Shown here one piece after another: positions 952-18,232 of a DNA stretch of 64,000 nucleotides. The DNA is from Acinetobacter sp. ASP199 (lineage in GTDB: Bacteria > Pseudomonadota > Gammaproteobacteria > Pseudomonadales > Moraxellaceae), in assembly GCF_022700675.1 (NCBI RefSeq), contig NZ_CP062182.1, positions 2,356,001 to 2,420,000 on the forward strand, written 5' to 3'. The notes under the pieces are model-generated. The model was not told where the DNA came from. It saw only the letters and a program-made list of their open reading frames with translations, and made no database searches. The stretch's first letter is position 1. Every line of letters starts with the position of its first letter. A program made the translations under genes and the position numbers.

Positions 952-2235
952 ATGTCTATCCTAAGTTGGGACGATTTCGAAGATGATTCGCAAAAACCAG
1001 CTGCACAAACACAGCAGCCTGCGCCCGTCGAGCCGCAAAAAGCGACTCATTCACAAGTGGTATCTGATGCAAGCAACACATCGTCGGATGTGGCAGCTGC
1101 ACAACCCATTAGAGCCACTCAAAACCGAGGATCAAATCCAACCGATTCGCTGGCAAGAGCATCTGCTTCCCTAGAACAGCTTGATGTTGCACCAGGCTTA
1201 GAAGAGCTTGAAATGGGTGCGCAACGTGTACAGGTTGACGACAAGGCAATGATTAACTGTCGTGCGGACTTGAACCAGCTTGTTCCATTCAAATACGAAT
1301 GGGCTTGGCAGAAGTATCTGGACGGTTGTGCAAACCACTGGATGCCTCAAGAAGTTAACATGAACCACGACATCGCGTTGTGGAAGTCTGAAAATGGCTT
1401 GACTGAAGATGAACGTACCATTGTGATGCGTTCACTTGGTTTCTTCTCGACTGCCGATTCACTGGTTGCAAACAACCTGGTACTGGCGATTTACCGTCAC
1501 ATTACCAACCCTGAATGCCGTCAGTACATTTTGCGTCAGGCGTTTGAAGAAGCGATTCACACCCATGCTTACCAGTACTGTATCGAATCTTTAGGTATGG
1601 ATGAAGGCGAAGTCTTCAACATGTACCGCGAAGTACCATCAGTTGCACGTAAAGCCGCTTGGGGCCTGAAATATACTCAGTCTTTAAGTGATCCTACTTT
1701 CAAAACTGGTACACCTGAAAACGACCAGATCCTGCTTCGCAACCTGATCGCGTTCTACTGTGTACTTGAAGGTATCTTCTTCTACTGTGGTTTCAGCCAG
1801 ATCCTGTCTATGGGCCGTCGTAACAAGATGAATGGTGTTGCCGAGCAATTCCAGTACATCCTGCGTGATGAGTCGATGCACCTGAACTTCGGTATCGATA
1901 TGATCAACCAGATCAAGATCGAAAACCCAGGTTTATGGACGACTGAATTCCAGGAAGAAATCATTCAGATGATTCTTGAAGGTACCATGCTGGAAATCGA
2001 ATACGCACGTGATACCATGCCGCGCGGTGTATTGGGTATGAATGCTGGCATGATGGAAGAATACCTGAAGTTCATTGCTAACCGTCGTCTGGCGCAATTA
2101 GGCTTGCCTGAACAGTTCGCTGGTGTGAATAACCCATTCCAGTGGATGTCAGAGATGATGGACTTGCGTAAAGAGAAGAATTTTTTCGAGACGCGCGTAA
2201 CAGATTACCAAACTGGCGGTGCGCTAAGCTGGTAA
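952..2235 (+). CDS. nrdB: Ribonucleoside-diphosphate reductase beta subunit (class Ia-type)
   Basis: The radical-generating subunit of aerobic ribonucleotide reductase, which with NrdA makes dNTPs in the cytoplasm. The ferritin-like core shows the E-x-x-H-x-x-x-Y pattern EAIHTHAY. E200 and H203 are expected metal ligands and Y207 the expected radical tyrosine, so the protein looks tyrosyl-radical rather than the Phe-bearing class Ic type. At 427 residues it is longer than the roughly 375 usual for R2. The first 95 residues are a low-complexity Ala/Pro/Gln/Ser region before the core. The ATG at 952 is preceded by a GAGAGAAC-type RBS, and a strong terminator follows at 2311. Confidence 0.95.
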
Positions 2236-2307
2236 GCTAATTTTGTTGTCGTTAAATGACAGTTGATGTGAGATTTTTGACACATATTCAAGATTATTAC
2301 ATTAACT

Positions 2308-2340
2308 AAAAAATAGAGCTCATGTGGCTCTATTTTTTTT
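2308..2340 (+). terminator. Rho-independent terminator of nrdB
   Basis: The stem AAATAGAGC / GCTCTATTT with a 7-base loop is followed by eight T, about 70 bases after the nrdB stop. From here to about 2750 there is no gene; the AT-rich stretch presumably carries the promoter of the Wadjet operon, but I see no clear -35/-10 pair. Confidence 0.85.
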
Positions 2341-2751
2341 GCATATCGAACTTTAAAAAATAACTAATGCTAGATGGCATTCGTTACATAATAATCTACA
2401 AACAGCCATTACATGTGTAATAAACAATTTAAAACTATGCGACATACTTTGTCGCTCTTTACCCGAACCAAACTGTGCAATTCGTGATCAATAGATTATT
2501 GTATAACTATTAAATTTAACATGTTACGCAACAATTAAAGTTAATATCTAACCAAACTAAACACTAATTATTCAGACTGTATTCGGTAACCTTCATTGCA
2601 GTGATTAATTTTATATATGGTATCCATATCTCTCTGCACTTGATAAACCTTAACTAGCCCATAACTCATGAGGCTCTAGTCGCTTTCGTGAATGATTTAT
2701 TTGGATATTAATAATCATAAAATCGTTAAAAACCAATCATGGAGCAAGGAA

Positions 2752-4248
2752 ATGCCAAATGTTCAAGAAATATCTATCTCTCTTAGAACATCTCCCAGCA
2801 TTACTCTTTTGTGTCTGAAAAACAGAGAATGGGTTATTCAGTTTCTGCTTGAGGCTTTTCCCACTCAACAACCATCTAACTCATCAGAAAAACTGCAATT
2901 AGCTTTAATCAAATATATTGAAACGAATCTTGATTCGATTAACGATAATGACGAGTTTGATCTAGCTGATGACTTCAATACAGATCAGGATTTATCACTT
3001 ACGACTTATGAGGCAAAAGCAAAACGCTATATTCAACATTGGACCAATAAAGGCTTTCTCAGCAACTATCAGGATGATCAAGGCATCATATTTTATGAGT
3101 TATCTTCTCACACAAATAAGACATTAGACTGGCTACAAAGCCTCACAAAAGAGGAATTTGTCGGTACTGAATCCAAATTCAAATACATCTTTAGTCAACT
3201 CAAAGAGCTAGTAGAAAATACCAATGACAATGTAGAAAACCGTATCCAAGTATTAGAGCAAAAGAAGCTAGAAATTGAACAGCAAATTCAACGCCTTAAG
3301 ATTGGCGAAGATATTAATATCTATGAAGAATATCAGATTACACCTCGTTTTAAAGAAATCACCCAATCCGCAAAAGAGCTTCTATCTGACTTCAAAGAAG
3401 TAGAGGAAAACTTTAAATCAATTACCAAAGATATCTATCAACGTCATGCCGAAGGGAATCTATACAAAAGTGACATCTTACAATTTGCCTTTGACTCACT
3501 TGACGCTCTTAAAGAAAGCTCTCAAGGTAAAAGTTTCTATGCTTTTTGGTCTTTCCTGCTCAATCCAAGTCTGCAACAAGAATGGGACAGTCTAGTTATT
3601 TCCTTATATGAAATGCTTCAAGAAAAGAATATTCAGATCGACGACTTTTTTCTGCGTGGAATGAAGAAGTACCTGTATCAATCAGGTCAAAAAGTTTATA
3701 AAGCCAACGATCGTATGGCTGAAAAGTTGAGCCGCATCATTAGAGAAAGTGAAGCCTCTCAATCTGCACTTACAAAAAGCATTATTCAGGATATCAAGAA
3801 ATCTCTGCTAATCTTAAATAAGCACAACCAAAAACCAGATATTGGTTTTGAGCTTGAAACCTCAGCAGAAATAAAAATTCCTTTTGAGAAAAAGTTAAGC
3901 TATGAAAAATCCAAACCAGTTGACTATAAAATAAACCCTACTCTGGCAAGCATGGACCTGGCTCACTCGGAACAATTGGCAAAACTGTTTGCACACATCC
4001 ATGTTGATAAAAAGAAAATCAGACAGCATATTCAAGGCATTCTACTTCATCAATCACAAGCAAGCATTCAGGAACTCATTGATAAACAAGGTGGACTTTC
4101 TCAAGGATTACCAGAGTTATTTGGATACATGGATGTCATCAAAGATTTTAAACATACAGTGAATGACGAGCATCAACTGCGTATCTGCTTCGATCAAGCT
4201 CAGCAAAAGGTCATTCAGATTCCTGAAATTATTGTCATATGCTCTTAA
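2752..4248 (+). CDS. jetA: Wadjet type I component JetA (DUF3375, kleisin-like)
   Basis: First gene of a four-gene Wadjet operon. JetA proteins (DUF3375) are MukF-like kleisins that bridge the two SMC heads. Here the protein is 498 residues from the preferred start. ATG 2752 has GGAG seven bases upstream, and the N-terminus MPNVQEISISLRTSPSI matches the family layout of an N-terminal winged-helix region opening on L-R-x-S-P-S. An in-frame ATG at 2692 adds 20 residues but lacks an RBS. A charged coiled-coil segment lies near residues 150-240. The stop is 12 bases before the preferred jetB start. Family assignment is from recall of the domain and from the gene order. Confidence 0.88.
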   Translation: MPNVQEISISLRTSPSITLLCLKNREWVIQFLLEAFPTQQPSNSSEKLQLALIKYIETNLDSINDNDEFDLADDFNTDQDLSLTTYEAKAKRYIQHWTNKGFLSNYQDDQGIIFYELSSHTNKTLDWLQSLTKEEFVGTESKFKYIFSQLKELVENTNDNVENRIQVLEQKKLEIEQQIQRLKIGEDINIYEEYQITPRFKEITQSAKELLSDFKEVEENFKSITKDIYQRHAEGNLYKSDILQFAFDSLDALKESSQGKSFYAFWSFLLNPSLQQEWDSLVISLYEMLQEKNIQIDDFFLRGMKKYLYQSGQKVYKANDRMAEKLSRIIRESEASQSALTKSIIQDIKKSLLILNKHNQKPDIGFELETSAEIKIPFEKKLSYEKSKPVDYKINPTLASMDLAHSEQLAKLFAHIHVDKKKIRQHIQGILLHQSQASIQELIDKQGGLSQGLPELFGYMDVIKDFKHTVNDEHQLRICFDQAQQKVIQIPEIIVICS

Positions 4249-4259
4249 GGATTATTAAA

Positions 4260-4841
4260 GTGCCAAATTTAGAACAGTACGAACAACCCTACTCCAGAGC
4301 CATTATAAGACTACTGAAATCACCAATCGAACGTAGCTCTCTACTATGGGAAAGCATTATTCATTATCAGGCTGCAATTCAGGACTATGTTGGAACAATT
4401 GGGCTTGAATTAATCATTAAAAAGGATGAAGGCTTTGCCTATGTCAAGCAAATGGAAGATAGCGAAGGTGGCACCTTAGGACTTGTACAAAGACGTGCTA
4501 TAAGTTTTGAGGCCTCCATTGTCTTGGTTGTACTGCGCAATAGCCTAGAAGAGTTTGATAGCAATCCGACACAGTACCAAGCCAGTGAAAAATTCATTTC
4601 CAATATTCAAATTCGTGAAGAGTTGGAGCTATTTCTTCAAGAGAGCTATAACCATCTTAAATTCCAAAAAGACCTAGACAGGCATATTGATACTATAGAG
4701 GAACTCGGCTATCTCAGGTTGGTTTCGAAAAAGGAACTGGAAAAAACCTATCAAATTCATCGCATTATCAAAGAAAAAATCAGTTTAAACGAATTACAAG
4801 AATTCAAAGGAAAAATAAATGACTACCTACAGTCTATTTAG
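4260..4841 (+). CDS. jetB: Wadjet type I component JetB (DUF4194, KITE-like)
   Basis: A MukE/KITE-like winged-helix subunit that binds the JetA kleisin. It is 193 residues from GTG 4260, which has TTAAGGA eight bases upstream and gives MPNLEQYEQPYSRAI. The alternative ATG at 4239 overlaps jetA and has no RBS. The region of residues 85-170 (VVLRNSLEEFDSNPTQ and onward) has the character of DUF4194 proteins. The 3' end overlaps jetC by 23 bases, indicating translational coupling, as is common in these operons. Confidence 0.85.
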   Translation: MPNLEQYEQPYSRAIIRLLKSPIERSSLLWESIIHYQAAIQDYVGTIGLELIIKKDEGFAYVKQMEDSEGGTLGLVQRRAISFEASIVLVVLRNSLEEFDSNPTQYQASEKFISNIQIREELELFLQESYNHLKFQKDLDRHIDTIEELGYLRLVSKKELEKTYQIHRIIKEKISLNELQEFKGKINDYLQSI

Positions 4842-7800
4842 TACAAGTTCTGACCGTGCTGGCTTCCGCCTTAATTATATGGAAGTGTATAACTGGGGAA
4901 CTTTTGATGATCGTATCTTCAGAATTATGCCTCAAGGCAATAACTCGCTGTTGACTGGCGCAAATGCATCAGGTAAAAGCACATTTATTGATGCCCTTCT
5001 GACATTGCTTGTTCCGGTAAAGAAAGATCGCTTCTATAACCAATCCTCTGGGATTGATAAAAAGGGGGATCGAACTGAAGAAACGTATGTCCTTGGCCAT
5101 TATGGCAATATTCAAAACGAGGGTGAAGCTGGCACCTCAACTCAAAAACTACGGGATAAAAACTGCTACTCTGTCATATTAGCCAACTTTAGTAATACTG
5201 ACTTTCGTACAATCACACTTTTTCAGGTTCGCTGGTTCAGCAATGGCGAACTCAAACGCACCTTTGGCTTAGCCCATACCGACTTAACCATTAGTGAAGA
5301 TTTTAACCACTTTGATGCGAAAGGCAGCTGGAAAAAACGATTAGAAAAACAATACAGTAATCAAAGTAAGCGTATCATTGAGTTTTTTGATGGGCCTACT
5401 GGCTACGCTGAACGCTTTGCTGATCTATTAGGTATGCGCTCAGCAACCGCCCTTAGCCTTTTTAATCAGGTCGTTGGCGTTAAAGTGCTCGATGATTTGG
5501 ATGAGTTTATTCGCAATAACATGCTGGAAAATCGTGATGCAGAAAATGAATACTTGCAATTAAAAGCAAGTTTTGTGACGCTCATGGAAGCAAAAACCAA
5601 TATCGAGAAAGCGAAAGAACAAATTAACCAGCTGCTTCCAATTGATGAGCTTGCGCAGAGTATTCAACACGTCACTCAACAAAAAGAACGGCTTGATCAG
5701 TTTAAAAAACAAGGGAACTATTGGTTTACGAAAAAGTTCGTTGAGCTTGCAGCACAAGAACTCGAAAAACAAAATGCCGAATTGACCATCAAAGGCATTG
5801 ATCTATCTAGATTACGGGAGCAAGAAACGCAACTTACTGAACAGCAAACAGATTTAAAGGTACAAATCAAATCTGACCATGTTGGTGGCCAAATTGAGAG
5901 CTTAAAGCAACGGATTAACCCTTTAGAAAAAAGTTGTGAGCAACGCTCAAAAAGATTGGAGGAATATAATCAGCTGGTATGCTCACTCGGGCTGATTCTA
6001 AATCCTGATATCAATCAATTTCTACACAACAAAACTCAAGCACAGAAGTCTGCTAAGGACTTAGAGCAACAGCAACAAGATAAACAACTAGAACTACGCA
6101 AACTTGAAAATGAGAAAATAGACATTCAGCGTGGCATTAGTGAGCTCATGGAGAATATTCAAACTTTGCAAAGGAACCAGAATAATATTACTGGTCGTGT
6201 AGCCAGTATTCGCGATGAAATTTTGCAACATACTGGCGCCAATAAACATGAAATCCCGTTCATTGCCGAGCTCATCAAAGTAAAGAGTGAGGAAATGGCT
6301 TGGGAACCAGCCATTGAGAAAATCCTGCACAGCTTCGCATTACGCCTAGTTATACCAGAAAAATATTACAAACAAGTCAATGAGTACGTGAACCGGACTA
6401 ACTTAAAAGGCCGCATCGTATACCAGCGTTATCAGGATATTTCTCAGCTGAACTCGTTCAGCTCGCTAAAACAGCCCTCTGCTAATGCATTATTTAACAA
6501 ATTGGAATTCAACCCAAAAAGCACATACATCACTGGCATTGAGGATGTTATCAAACACCAGTTTGACTATGCTTGTGTAAATAGTCTAGAGGAATTTAAC
6601 CACTACAATGAAAAAGCAGTAACCCAACAAGGACTTATCAAATCCACCAAAGGTAAACATGAAAAAGACGATCGCCAGAACATCACTCACCGTGATAACT
6701 ATATTCTAGGCTGGGATAACCAAGAAAAGATCTCTTTATTAAGGAACAGGTTTAATGCCCTTCAAGAAGATCAAACCAACAATAAGGCAAAAATAGATCG
6801 AGCTCATGAGAAAGTCGAACAGCTCAAACAACATCAAGCCAACTGTAACAAGCTTATCGATAAGTATGAACAATTTGATGACATTGACTGGCAAAACGAT
6901 GCCAGACAAATTGAAGACCTCAAACGACAACTTGAGGTATTAAAACAAGCAAATGATCGTATAGCAGCACTACAACAACAATTAGTGGATGTTGAAACCA
7001 AACTCTCTACATTGAAAGATACCTCTATTACCCATGCTCAACGAGAAATCTTTAGTGTTGAGAAGAAAATAGAAGAGATTTCCTCTCAGATTGAAAAGGA
7101 ACAGCAATCCCTCTCCTCCTCGATCGCTGTGGATACTACCTCTTTCGTCGAAGCATATCCAACTTATAGCCAGGTTGAGTTTAAAAATATTGATACGAAA
7201 AAAATCGAGATGTTGACCTATTTTAATAACCAAACAAAAGCGCTCGATGACCGTCTCAAAAATCATACGGACCAAATTACCAAGAGAATCTTTCAATTTA
7301 AAAACCCCAACGAAGTAATTACTTCCAAGTTTATAGATTGGAGATCTGATGTACATCATCTGCCTGACCCGGAGCATTTGGACTTAATTGGTGAATACCA
7401 AACTTTCCTGGAAAAACTACAGAACGATAATCTTCCTAAATTCGAGAAAAGATTTAATGATTATTTACATGAAACCATAACCAACAAGGTTAGTGATTTC
7501 CGCATGTTCTTTATGAATTGGGCTGACTCAATTAAGGAAAATATTCAAACACTGAATGATGCCCTACAGGAAATAGATTTCAGAGATAAAGATTTCAAAA
7601 CCTATATCCAAATCGTTTTCCCTACCCGCATTAGCGATGAAATTAAAGACTTCAAAAGACTTTTAGAGCAGGCTATTCCTAATGCCAGAGAGATTGAAAA
7701 GAATCCTGAAGCTCAACATTTACACTTTGTGAATCATATTGAGCCATTTATCAAGAAACTTGATCATGAGGATTGGCGCAAAAAAGTCATGCAGGTTCGC

Positions 7801-8277
7801 TTTTGGTTTAGTTATAAAGCTGAAGAATTTTATCGGGAAAATCATCGTAAGTTCAAGACCTATGAAAACATGGGACAACTTTCTGGAGGTGAAAAAGCAC
7901 AGCTAACATACACTATCCTAGGATCTGCCATTGCATATCAATTTGGCTTAACAAAAGAAGGCTTACAAAGTGACTCATTCCGTTTCATCGCAATTGATGA
8001 GGCATTTAAAGCCCAAGACGAAGACAAAGCACGTTATCTTATTAACCTATGTAAGCAGCTGCATTTACAGCTTTTGGTTGTCACCCCGAGCGATAATATC
8101 CATATTGTAGAAAATGATATTTCCTTCGTACATTATGTTGAGCGGAAGAATGAACGTCATTCTTGGCTATATGACATGCCAATCGAACAGTTTAAAGAAG
8201 AAAAAGAACAATGGATTAATAGAGAAACTCGACAAACAAACGACATGCATAACTTACCTGTCACTCAACAGTTTTAG
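4819..8277 (+). CDS. jetC: Wadjet type I component JetC (SMC-like ATPase)
   Basis: The large SMC/MukB-like motor, 1152 residues. It has an N-terminal ATPase half with Walker A GANASGKST at 47-55. Long coiled coils run over about 260-460 and 640-800, around a hinge-like globular region near 470-640. The C-terminal half carries the ABC signature LSGGEKAQ near 1021 and Walker B FRFIAIDEA with D1060/E1061. In Wadjet this motor extrudes plasmid DNA loops and presents small circles to the JetD nuclease. All ATPase motifs are intact. The RBS AAAGGA lies in the end of jetB. SbcC-like or MukB-like naming is possible, but the operon identifies it as JetC. Confidence 0.92.
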   Translation: MTTYSLFSTSSDRAGFRLNYMEVYNWGTFDDRIFRIMPQGNNSLLTGANASGKSTFIDALLTLLVPVKKDRFYNQSSGIDKKGDRTEETYVLGHYGNIQNEGEAGTSTQKLRDKNCYSVILANFSNTDFRTITLFQVRWFSNGELKRTFGLAHTDLTISEDFNHFDAKGSWKKRLEKQYSNQSKRIIEFFDGPTGYAERFADLLGMRSATALSLFNQVVGVKVLDDLDEFIRNNMLENRDAENEYLQLKASFVTLMEAKTNIEKAKEQINQLLPIDELAQSIQHVTQQKERLDQFKKQGNYWFTKKFVELAAQELEKQNAELTIKGIDLSRLREQETQLTEQQTDLKVQIKSDHVGGQIESLKQRINPLEKSCEQRSKRLEEYNQLVCSLGLILNPDINQFLHNKTQAQKSAKDLEQQQQDKQLELRKLENEKIDIQRGISELMENIQTLQRNQNNITGRVASIRDEILQHTGANKHEIPFIAELIKVKSEEMAWEPAIEKILHSFALRLVIPEKYYKQVNEYVNRTNLKGRIVYQRYQDISQLNSFSSLKQPSANALFNKLEFNPKSTYITGIEDVIKHQFDYACVNSLEEFNHYNEKAVTQQGLIKSTKGKHEKDDRQNITHRDNYILGWDNQEKISLLRNRFNALQEDQTNNKAKIDRAHEKVEQLKQHQANCNKLIDKYEQFDDIDWQNDARQIEDLKRQLEVLKQANDRIAALQQQLVDVETKLSTLKDTSITHAQREIFSVEKKIEEISSQIEKEQQSLSSSIAVDTTSFVEAYPTYSQVEFKNIDTKKIEMLTYFNNQTKALDDRLKNHTDQITKRIFQFKNPNEVITSKFIDWRSDVHHLPDPEHLDLIGEYQTFLEKLQNDNLPKFEKRFNDYLHETITNKVSDFRMFFMNWADSIKENIQTLNDALQEIDFRDKDFKTYIQIVFPTRISDEIKDFKRLLEQAIPNAREIEKNPEAQHLHFVNHIEPFIKKLDHEDWRKKVMQVRFWFSYKAEEFYRENHRKFKTYENMGQLSGGEKAQLTYTILGSAIAYQFGLTKEGLQSDSFRFIAIDEAFKAQDEDKARYLINLCKQLHLQLLVVTPSDNIHIVENDISFVHYVERKNERHSWLYDMPIEQFKEEKEQWINRETRQTNDMHNLPVTQQF

Positions 8278-8292
8278 CGAAAGTTTAATGAA

Positions 8293-9450
8293 ATGATTAC
8301 TGCACAAGAAATCAAATTAAAAGCTCAGCGCAAGTACGCCGAATATTTAAAATCTCTCATCACCGGAGGGACTATCTTCCCATTAGATATTCCTGGTAAT
8401 AAGAGTTATAACAAATCATCAATGGATGAGTTTAGACGCGAAATCAGTTATATATCAAAAGACAGCAAAGAAAAGAATATATTTGGCTACTCCATTGAGT
8501 ATCAGACTATTAGAACAAAATACTTAGGTTTACAAGACCTGCCAGCAAGAGTCTTTTTTGAATGCGAAGAAGACTTTGTTCGCTATATTTCCAAATACGA
8601 TGAAGTTGAAATCTTTAGACAAAACTATCAAAAGATACTGCAGCTGATACCTCAATTGAAAACATGGATTGAACTTAATCCATTAAAGGTCATTGAACAT
8701 GCGAATAATTGGGACAGTTTGCTAAAAGTCTGCCAATATTTTCAAACTACGCCTCAGCCAAACTTATATATCCGTGAGTTACCCATTCTTGTACATACCA
8801 AATTTATTGAGCAAAACAAGGGCATTCTTCGCGCCTTGTTACTAGAAATAATTCCAGAATATTGCGACCCTAAACAGACCATTTTTGAACATTGCTTTAA
8901 TTTAAAAGTATATGAATCACAAGTTCGTTTCCGTATTTTGGACTCACAACTCAGCAACCAATATCTACTCGGGATCTCTGATCTAGCAATTCCCTTAAGC
9001 CAATTTCAATCTTTATCACTACCGATAAAACGTGTCATTGTGATTGAAAATAAAGTTAGTTTTTATACTGCACTCACCCTGCCCGATATGTCTAATACAA
9101 TCGTCATTTTTGGCAGCGGCTATAAAATAGCGGAGCTGAAAAAAGTAACCTGGCTCGATCATGTTGAATTACTTTATTGGGGGGACATTGATGCTCAGGG
9201 CTTTGAAATTCTTTCCCAATTCAGAAGTTATTTCCCTCATGCCAAAAGTTTTCTTATGGATAAAATTACGTTCGATCTATTCTTTGAACAGGATTCGGGA
9301 ACCCCTTCAATAATAAACGTAGAAAACCACCTCAACAATGAAGAGCAATACTTATATCAACTAGTAAAATCCAATAACTGGCGTATGGAACAAGAAAAAA
9401 TTACAGTCGAGCACGTCAATAAAGCACTTCATGCAAACATTAGTATCTAG
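8293..9450 (+). CDS. jetD: Wadjet type I component JetD (DUF3322/DUF2220 TOPRIM nuclease)
   Basis: The effector nuclease of Wadjet, 385 residues, starting 15 bases after jetC. The N-terminal arm domain (DUF3322-like) covers roughly residues 1-190. The C-terminal TOPRIM-like half (DUF2220) shows the acidic residues expected for metal-dependent cleavage: E252 in VIVIENKVSF and D298/D300 in YWGDIDAQGF. It is related to Spo11/topoisomerase VI-A folds. With JetABC it cleaves circular plasmids. The ORF is full length and shows no damage, so the system appears intact. Confidence 0.9.
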   Translation: MITAQEIKLKAQRKYAEYLKSLITGGTIFPLDIPGNKSYNKSSMDEFRREISYISKDSKEKNIFGYSIEYQTIRTKYLGLQDLPARVFFECEEDFVRYISKYDEVEIFRQNYQKILQLIPQLKTWIELNPLKVIEHANNWDSLLKVCQYFQTTPQPNLYIRELPILVHTKFIEQNKGILRALLLEIIPEYCDPKQTIFEHCFNLKVYESQVRFRILDSQLSNQYLLGISDLAIPLSQFQSLSLPIKRVIVIENKVSFYTALTLPDMSNTIVIFGSGYKIAELKKVTWLDHVELLYWGDIDAQGFEILSQFRSYFPHAKSFLMDKITFDLFFEQDSGTPSIINVENHLNNEEQYLYQLVKSNNWRMEQEKITVEHVNKALHANISI

Positions 9451-9705
9451 CTTTATAATGGTCTGATGATAAGGCTTTAAATTTTTATGAGCTTTTTGAA
9501 ATAAATTATTCGGATCGAAAAATACCCTCTTAGTAACAGGATTAAAATAATTCGAAGATGATTTTCATATAGTTACTCTAGATGATCAACTAAACCTCCC
9601 ACAACGGGAAAAACACAGTTAATATTGAATGTCAAAAAAGCTAAAAAATCTTTGATTTCATTAAAAAAATAAATCTCATGCTATCGGTCATTTTAACTTT
9701 AAATA

Positions 9706-17160: not shown

Positions 17161-18232
17161 GGCGGATTCAAGCAGCAAGTGCAACAGTATAAAAACCAGC
17201 CATAACTTCACTAGGCGTATACCAGCCTAGTGTTTTTCTAGGGCGATGATTGAGAGCAAATTCTATCTGCTCTATTTGTTCATTTGACAGTTCATCAAAC
17301 GAAGATGATTTTGGCAGATATTGCCTGATCAGACCATTGGTATTTTCATTTCTGGCTCGTTGAATCGACTTGTATGGATCTGCAAAGTACGTCTCTATCC
17401 CTGCTTCCGTTATCCGCCGGTGCTCGGAGAACTCCTTACCATTATCAAAGGTTACACTGTAGGCATGACTGCTGCGCAAACATGCTAAAGCACACGAGAT
17501 CGTTTTAGTTGTGGTTCTAGTTTGTCCCAAATGAACGATATGTACATACAAGCTTTTGCGCTCAACCAGAGTTAATAATGCCCCCTTGTGATTCTTGCCT
17601 ATCACGGTATCACCTTCAAAATCACCTAGGCGTTGACGTTTCTCGACGACCTCATCGCGACAGTGAATACTTGTTCTATCAACGAGTTGGCCTCTACGGT
17701 CTGTATTTTTATAACCTCGTTTACGATATTTCTTTTGATGCCTTAAATGAAGGTGGAGCTTACCACCTTTAGATTTATCTAGATAAACATACTGATAAAT
17801 CCATTCATGTGAAGGCACATCAAGCCAACCTCGTTGTGTTAAAGCACCTGAAATTTGCTCAGGAGACCAATCTAAGCCAATCAGATAACGAATATAAACG
17901 AGAGCAAAATCTGTCATTTGTGAAGAGGATCGATATCGTCTTTGACTTGAAAATTTCTCTGCCTGTTGAGCTCGATATCCACGTTTTCCAGTATTTCTTT
18001 TGATCTCACGATAAAGGGTTGATCGAGAACGTCCAAGCTCCCTGGCAAGGGTAGAGATTGAAGATTTGCTTTTCAAAGCAGCATAAATTTCGTATCTTTC
18101 ATCTTGAGAAAGTTGGGTGTATTGCTTCATTGGGTGCTTTCCAATTGCGAGTTGAAAAAAGTCTAATGATTTTAATACACCTAACTTTTTCAACTAACTA
18201 CAAATATGTCGCACTTGGTATTTGAATCTGCG
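17161..18232. mobile_element. Complete IS30-family insertion sequence
   Basis: About 1072 bp. The terminal inverted repeats of about 26 bp are GGCGGATTCAAGCAGCAAGT at the left and, reading inward on the other strand, CGCAGATTCAAATACCAAGT at the right. The element is flanked by a 3-bp direct repeat TGG (17158-17160 and 18233-18235), the target duplication expected of an IS30-family insertion. The transposase is intact. It resembles ISAba125-type elements, but the exact name was not checked. Confidence 0.88.
17168..18130 (-). CDS. IS30-family transposase
   Basis: A 320-residue DDE transposase from ATG 18130 (MKQYTQLSQDERYEIYAAL); the longer frame to 18193 reads into the IS end. The N-terminal helix-turn-helix is SISTLARELGRSRSTLYREI. 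The catalytic core has FEGDTVIG (first D), SVTFDNGKEF (second D), and the IS30-specific end ARNENTNGLIRQYLPK, with the catalytic E. It has full length and no frameshift. The C-terminus reaches almost into the left inverted repeat. Confidence 0.93.
   Translation of the reverse strand: MKQYTQLSQDERYEIYAALKSKSSISTLARELGRSRSTLYREIKRNTGKRGYRAQQAEKFSSQRRYRSSSQMTDFALVYIRYLIGLDWSPEQISGALTQRGWLDVPSHEWIYQYVYLDKSKGGKLHLHLRHQKKYRKRGYKNTDRRGQLVDRTSIHCRDEVVEKRQRLGDFEGDTVIGKNHKGALLTLVERKSLYVHIVHLGQTRTTTKTISCALACLRSSHAYSVTFDNGKEFSEHRRITEAGIETYFADPYKSIQRARNENTNGLIRQYLPKSSSFDELSNEQIEQIEFALNHRPRKTLGWYTPSEVMAGFYTVALAA

Follow-up and report, generated by a model that had tools for sequence, protein, structure and literature searches.

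Wadjet systems of type I have been solved from P. aeruginosa PA14 and E. coli GF4-3. According to passages of the review PMC10586767 all four Jet subunits are required: DNA extrusion is the proposed role of JetABC, which senses circles smaller than ~50-100 kb, and the cut is made by JetD. Defence genes have been described as cargo of Tn7-like elements (Benler 2021, PMC8649781); a table in that paper gives 34 for JetD, and Wadjet as Tn7-like cargo is already published there. The attachment sites of Tn7-like elements named in passages of PMC10293859, PMC11406308, PMC8190619 and PMC10121019 are glmS, comM, yhiN, parE, tRNA genes and others. In Acinetobacter, Tn6171 inserts 25 bp past glmS and makes a 5-bp duplication, and Tn6022 (comM) has been studied from this genus. 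The locus discussed here lies in a stretch of 64,000 nucleotides (nt) from Acinetobacter sp. ASP199 (NZ_CP062182.1, positions 2,356,001 to 2,420,000; the window), in which a type I Wadjet operon, jetABCD, is found just past nrdB between two ends of a Tn7-like element. The explanation that we favour, with a probability of roughly 0.7, is that a functional type I Wadjet arrived as cargo of a Tn7-like element that belongs to the family seen in the relatives G043 and G009 and inserted just past the nrdB stop.

The four jet genes are co-directional on the + strand. JetA (2752..4248, 498 amino acids (aa)) is a DUF3375 kleisin (PADLOC PDLC00444 JetA1, 6e-190; Pfam PF11855) and JetB (4239..4841, 200 aa) is a DUF4194 KITE-like subunit (PADLOC PDLC00487 JetB1, 5e-58; Pfam PF13835). 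JetC (4819..8277, 1152 aa) is an SMC ATPase (PADLOC PDLC00512 JetC1, E=0, 1114 bits; Pfam AAA_29 and SbcC_Walker_B) and JetD (8293..9450, 385 aa) is a TOPRIM nuclease (PADLOC PDLC00522 JetD1, 1e-141; Pfam PF11795 (DUF3322) and PF09983 (JetD_C)). JetA and JetB overlap by 10 nt, JetB and JetC by 23 nt, and a gap of 15 nt separates JetC from JetD. An alternative in-frame ATG at 2692 would give a longer JetA; the start at 2752 is favoured because the homologue in the relative G077 is likewise 498 aa and AGCAAGGAA is found immediately 5' of 2752. The best PADLOC match is a type I Jet model for each of the four proteins. Their Pfam families are all above cut-off with the exception of SMC_N in JetC, JetB is additionally above the Pfam MksE cut-off, more weakly than for DUF4194, and none of the four proteins has an NCBIfam match that passes the cut-off. 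An earlier note, made from the letters of this DNA, had described four co-directional genes with tight or overlapping junctions and the order and domains of type I Wadjet, none of them truncated. PADLOC and Pfam agree with that description, JetC and JetD do match Wadjet profiles in a PADLOC profile check, and all four frames are full length. The identity of the operon is far beyond chance and, as read from its sequence, 2752-9450 is an intact type I Wadjet that is ordinary as Wadjet.

The motifs that the note had listed were also found. JetC has an intact Walker A (GANASGKST at 47), signature (LSGGEK at 1021) and Walker B (FIAIDEAF at 1056), and the acidic residues of JetD are indeed E252, D298 and D300, which are invariant in 34/34 aligned JetD sequences (the query and 33 selected from 120 listed relatives). 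Against PDB sequences JetC has four matches at E <=0.001, all of them JetC (8dk2, 3e-69), JetA matches JetA chains (9qxt, 8e-11), and JetD matches both MksG and JetD with MksG as the best. The JetD fold was predicted with a mean local distance difference test score (pLDDT) of 85.7 and a template modelling score (pTM) of 0.63. A Foldseek search with this model gave eight PDB matches at E <=0.001, which are MksG 8b7f (1e-19) and JetD 7til (6e-16) at the top and topoisomerase VI chains, with moderate TM-scores of <=0.49 by query length and 17-20% identity to the solved JetD and MksG chains. By analogy with the studied systems reviewed in PMC10586767, JetABC would load on DNA as a dimer of dimers and extrude it with ATP turnover by JetC. 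On a small circle extrusion would be completed, the two motors would meet, and the JetD TOPRIM nuclease would be switched on and cut. The window proteins appear to have the parts needed for such an extrusion-and-cut mechanism, and the studied relatives suggest that this Wadjet would cleave small plasmids in its host.

Both Tn7-like ends lie outside 2752-9450 and were overlooked by the earlier note. The right end (2250..2310, + strand) is of the second of two families described below and starts with CGTTAAATGACAG 14 nt past the nrdB stop. It was called by pattern match and by alignment to the ends in G043 and G104; window 2255-2310 has a score of 71 against the G043 right end (shuffle maximum 27) and of 94 against the G104 right end (maximum 29), where each end alignment was controlled with 300 single-base shuffles. 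The left end (9610..9697, + strand), also of family 2, was called by its likeness to the G043 left end, against which window 9610-9704, a few flank bases included, has a score of 93 (shuffle maximum 40). The last 16 nt of the left end (9682-9697) are indistinguishable from empty-site flank, and likeness to G134, a relative with no jet genes at this site, begins at 9682. Measured against the jet-free nrdB-arsC arrangement of G134 the whole insertion is 2237..9681, to which no strand is assigned, with a GC content of 36.5% vs 47.4% for nrdB. The jetABCD genes alone are seen between the two ends. The window element is therefore classed as a tns-less derivative and not as a Tn7-like transposon proper.

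Two families of Tn7-like ends are found at nrdB in relatives. In G074 (family 1) GGTTTAGCTT comes after the nrdB stop, with CGTCATGCGACACAAGGTTTGTCA next; the block closes with the reverse complement of CGTCATGCGACACAAGGTTTGTCA, after which AGCTTAAAATG is read. G134 is free of this block and reads GGTTTAGCTTAAAATG at the G074 insertion point. Because the flanks fit the uninterrupted G134 sequence, G074 has a clean insertion with a 5-bp duplication, AGCTT. Family 2 in G043 has distinct ends, with CGCTGAATGACAGATAATGTGAGATTTTTGACACA on the nrdB side and a 5-bp duplication, TAAAA, that also fits G134. G009 has a family-2 element inside a family-1 end, with the 5-bp duplication CCGTC.

With the nrdB tail as anchor, the family-1 end was matched in 29/175 genomes; 27 are at nrdB by coordinates, G070 is not, and G151 is the remainder. 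The distance from the nrdB stop to the end is 6-15 nt for family 1 (26 of the 29 matches, leaving out two identical to G060 and one not at nrdB) and 13-14 nt for family 2 (four relatives). The unanchored family-1 search gave 54 matches in 38/173 genomes, 45 of which were located, the nine left out being from genomes G149 and up. Twenty-four of the 45 are <=60 bp past the nrdB stop, 8 are farther downstream on the same contig, 1 is elsewhere and 12 are on other contigs; 7 of the 8 farther downstream are in the opposite sense, as expected for left ends. Family 2 is the rarer of the two, with anchored matches in 5/175 genomes. Its unanchored right-end pattern was found in 9/173 genomes, once each (7 <=60 bp past the nrdB stop, 1 20 kb downstream and 1 elsewhere). 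The reversed control patterns had no match in the anchored or unanchored searches for either family.

The gene itself, nrdB, encodes the ribonucleotide reductase beta subunit (952..2235, + strand; NCBIfam NF005550, E 8e-213), and the attachment site is proposed to lie at its 3' end. Downstream of the jet operon arsC, arsR, acr3 and arsH are backed by NCBIfam, as is nrdB, in line with the setting between nrdB and arsenic genes that the earlier note had given. Both nrdB and thiD were matched in 149/149 Acinetobacter genomes. In 25 genomes picked by eye out of the 149, with nrdB and thiD on one contig, thiD is downstream of nrdB at 6.1-36.8 kb in 21 and placed otherwise in 4. An IS30 family transposase is found downstream of thiD in the window (17168-18193).

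The contents of the nrdB-arsC interval vary between close relatives. Both G134 and G074 have an nrdB that is 99% alike; in G134 nrdB is immediately beside arsC with no jet genes, and in G074 ~18 kb separates the two. The G074 block encodes a cyclic oligonucleotide-based antiphage signalling system (CBASS, L048:8883-13698), made up of a CD-NTase (SMODS, DncV-like), an E1-E2 protein and an effector of the SAVED/HNH type, followed by TnsA, TnsB, TnsC and TniQ homologues (tblastn). The Pfam domains of these kinds of tns protein, with members from G059, G074 and G023, are TnsA-like nuclease, rve, TniB and TniQ. At nrdB in G043 a defence-associated reverse transcriptase (DRT UG5-nitrilase) is found with type I restriction proteins (L053:6707-13870), and then a second, 28-41% alike kind of TnsA, TnsB, TnsC and TniQ homologues. 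Downstream of nrdB in G077 Gabija GajA and GajB (L045:934-5173) adjoin Wadjet. G077 also has a TnsA there, and a small HTH_17 protein that is possibly a TniQ remnant, as the G023 TniQ ends in the same domain. Cargo genes were compiled for 19 genomes with profile scans on selected ones. The nrdB 3' flank is a hotspot that is filled with differing defence genes in relatives through Tn7-like insertion, which bears out the suggestion of an accessory hotspot in the earlier note. Beside nrdB in G059 there is also a 1639-residue protein (L058:1505-6421) with no PADLOC match at 1e-5.

The jet operon is accessory in Acinetobacter. JetC relatives are present in 8/149 genomes, our own included; the close ones, in G077 and G039, are 90% and 89% identical and the other five 25-27%. 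JetD at 84-85% is also found in strains labelled A. junii, A. ursingii or A. wuhouensis. Outside the genus the nearest matches are one Moraxellaceae and one Gammaproteobacteria metagenome record, followed by mostly Bacteroidota where named, and the metagenome records L041 and L042 (JetC 71-73%) have no nrdB or tns match within the stretch fetched. The jet unit that the window has in common with G077 (2407-9433) and G039 (2410-9467) shows 88-89% DNA identity. Compared with G077 or G039, the window has a synonymous divergence (dS) of 0.27-0.61 in its jet genes. For nrdB it is 0.73 (G039) and 1.17 (G077, 224 codons read), and for thiD and a HAD gene of G039 it is at or near saturation; dN and dS are from a plain Nei-Gojobori count, in which figures that approach or exceed 1 are approximate. 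Because the jet dS is below that of nrdB, thiD and the HAD gene, the jet operon moved between species after their split. A plasmid origin of the insertion was rejected, with no DNA match in 72,556 plasmid records; 15 plasmid records have a JetC relative, all <60% identical and none named Acinetobacter. A tRNA-linked island was likewise rejected, with no tRNA found by ARAGORN in the window.

Several observations weigh against the arrival of a functional Wadjet as cargo of a family-2 element. No tns genes (TnsA, TnsB, TnsC, TniQ/TnsD) were found between the window ends. A 5-bp target duplication was not seen in the window, where the left terminus is blurred, and the window differs from G134 in the 14 nt from the nrdB stop to the right end. 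The inverted repeat between the window ends has a score of 22, not above shuffles (maximum 28), and for this reason the ends were called by likeness to G043. The jet unit that G077 and G039 have in common with the window does not reach either window end, so the ends and the operon may differ in history. G077 has a family-1 right end at nrdB, with TnsA between that end and the jet genes, and the G039 jet genes are on a different contig from its nrdB. For the pair G077 and G039, dS is 0.19 for JetA, 0.24 for JetB, 0.74 for JetD and 0.98 for nrdB; the signal of transfer is weaker for JetD in this pair because its value is near that of nrdB. As to function, JetB has no match to PDB sequences up to E 1, and 4239-4841 is without a literal IFDR string, the JetD-contact motif in JetB of a studied system according to passages of PMC10586767.

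It could be suggested from these observations that the Wadjet is real, that the ends are leftovers of an earlier element, and that the operon entered by homologous recombination at nrdB and not as cargo. The exclusion of both ends from the shared jet unit and the missing target duplication would fit such a history, and remnants are common at this site: family-1 right ends at nrdB without tns genes downstream are found in G060, G058 and G116. As to family 2, G043 and G009 have tns genes, with an interrupted TnsC in G009, and in G021, G066 and G086 no left end was found within the stretch fetched. However, both window ends flank the jet operon in the correct order with little else between them, and further family-2 end pairs without detectable tns genes hold other contents. 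The one in G104 (L085, minus strand, first 5.2 kb downstream of nrdB) is ~3.9 kb long and has no matching target duplication; its cargo, as read from the translations and not from profiles, is unlike defence genes and consists of a regulator of AraC type, an EthD-like protein and a hydrolase. A further pair lies away from nrdB in G062, and a less certain one is in G067, where the left end is weak (score 53). We therefore regard recombination between leftover ends as unlikely, although it is the alternative that survives best.

If the operon did arrive as family-2 cargo, the tns genes may have been lost or may never have been in the window copy, which would leave the jet operon between two element ends. 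Entry by transposition would then have been followed by loss of mobility. The search of our own genome (one contig, 3.05 Mb) for TnsB gave one unconvincing match, 30% over 103 residues (E 2.7e-6), and the TniQ search was empty, a weak result as its control was also without a match. Because there is no target duplication and no convincing transposase in the genome, the window copy is probably immobile.

A second alternative is that the Wadjet is decaying and inactive in this strain. At least one relative, G039, has a broken system, as a single stop codon interrupts its JetC (L046:14042-17497), and the element ends in the window are worn. Against this, the four window frames are full length, their motifs are intact, and the ratio of nonsynonymous to synonymous divergence vs G077 is well below 1, at ~0.08-0.17 over the four genes (dN/dS 0.032/0.40 for JetA, 0.050/0.35 for JetB, 0.046/0.42 for JetC and 0.083/0.50 for JetD). 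These ratios indicate purifying selection on the four Jet proteins, and decay in this strain is improbable. Hardly tenable is the idea of a housekeeping condensin of MukBEF or MksBEF type in place of defence: JetB is above the Pfam MksE cut-off and MksG is the best PDB sequence match of JetD, but a JetC relative is present in 8/149 genomes and a close one in 3 including our own, genus-wide conservation is not seen, the operon has spread between species, a JetD nuclease is present, and MksBEFG is itself described as plasmid defence in PMC10123090.

A broader proposal is more tentative, and we hold it at slightly less than even odds. The 3' end of nrdB may be an attachment site for at least two Tn7-like families and a port of entry for Acinetobacter defence genes, and one of the families may also spread as short tns-less cargo elements moved in trans. 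Wadjet limits small plasmids, which are a vehicle of bacterial gene traffic. If it arrives at one fixed site, where CBASS, restriction and Gabija are found in relatives, nrdB shows how the defence content of the genus changes, and such a site, if true, is open to inspection in every genome. Movement of tns-less elements in trans would mean that cargo could spread without a transposase of its own.

No earlier description of nrdB as a Tn7-like attachment site was found among the papers listed by the searches, and it may be listed in supplementary tables or subscription papers. The words "nrd" and "ribonucleotide" or "ribonucleo" are absent from the main texts of PMC10293859, PMC8649781 and PMC8190619, and "ribonucleotide" is absent from the main text of PMC11406308. 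Of the papers found to name both Tn7 and nrdB, none is by its title on an nrdB attachment site, and the passages of PMC5963079 agree. PMC3826726 describes an integrative element that carries an nrdB gene.

Compared with the solved type I Wadjet systems of P. aeruginosa PA14 and E. coli GF4-3, the window matches in its four genes, their order, domains and catalytic motifs, but its proteins are distant in sequence, and JetB lacks both a PDB match and a literal IFDR. MksBEFG also combines a condensin-like complex with a TOPRIM nuclease, and of the solved relatives MksG scores best with JetD; however, in PADLOC a type I Jet model comes first for each of the four window proteins. The Tn7-like elements described in Benler 2021 (PMC8649781) likewise carry defence cargo, whereas the window element is without tns genes. 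Tn6171 resembles the nrdB elements in its insertion shortly past a conserved gene, its 5-bp duplication and its Acinetobacter host. Tn7 and Tn6171 (glmS), Tn6230 (yhiN) and Tn6022 (comM) use other attachment sites, whereas the site here is nrdB.

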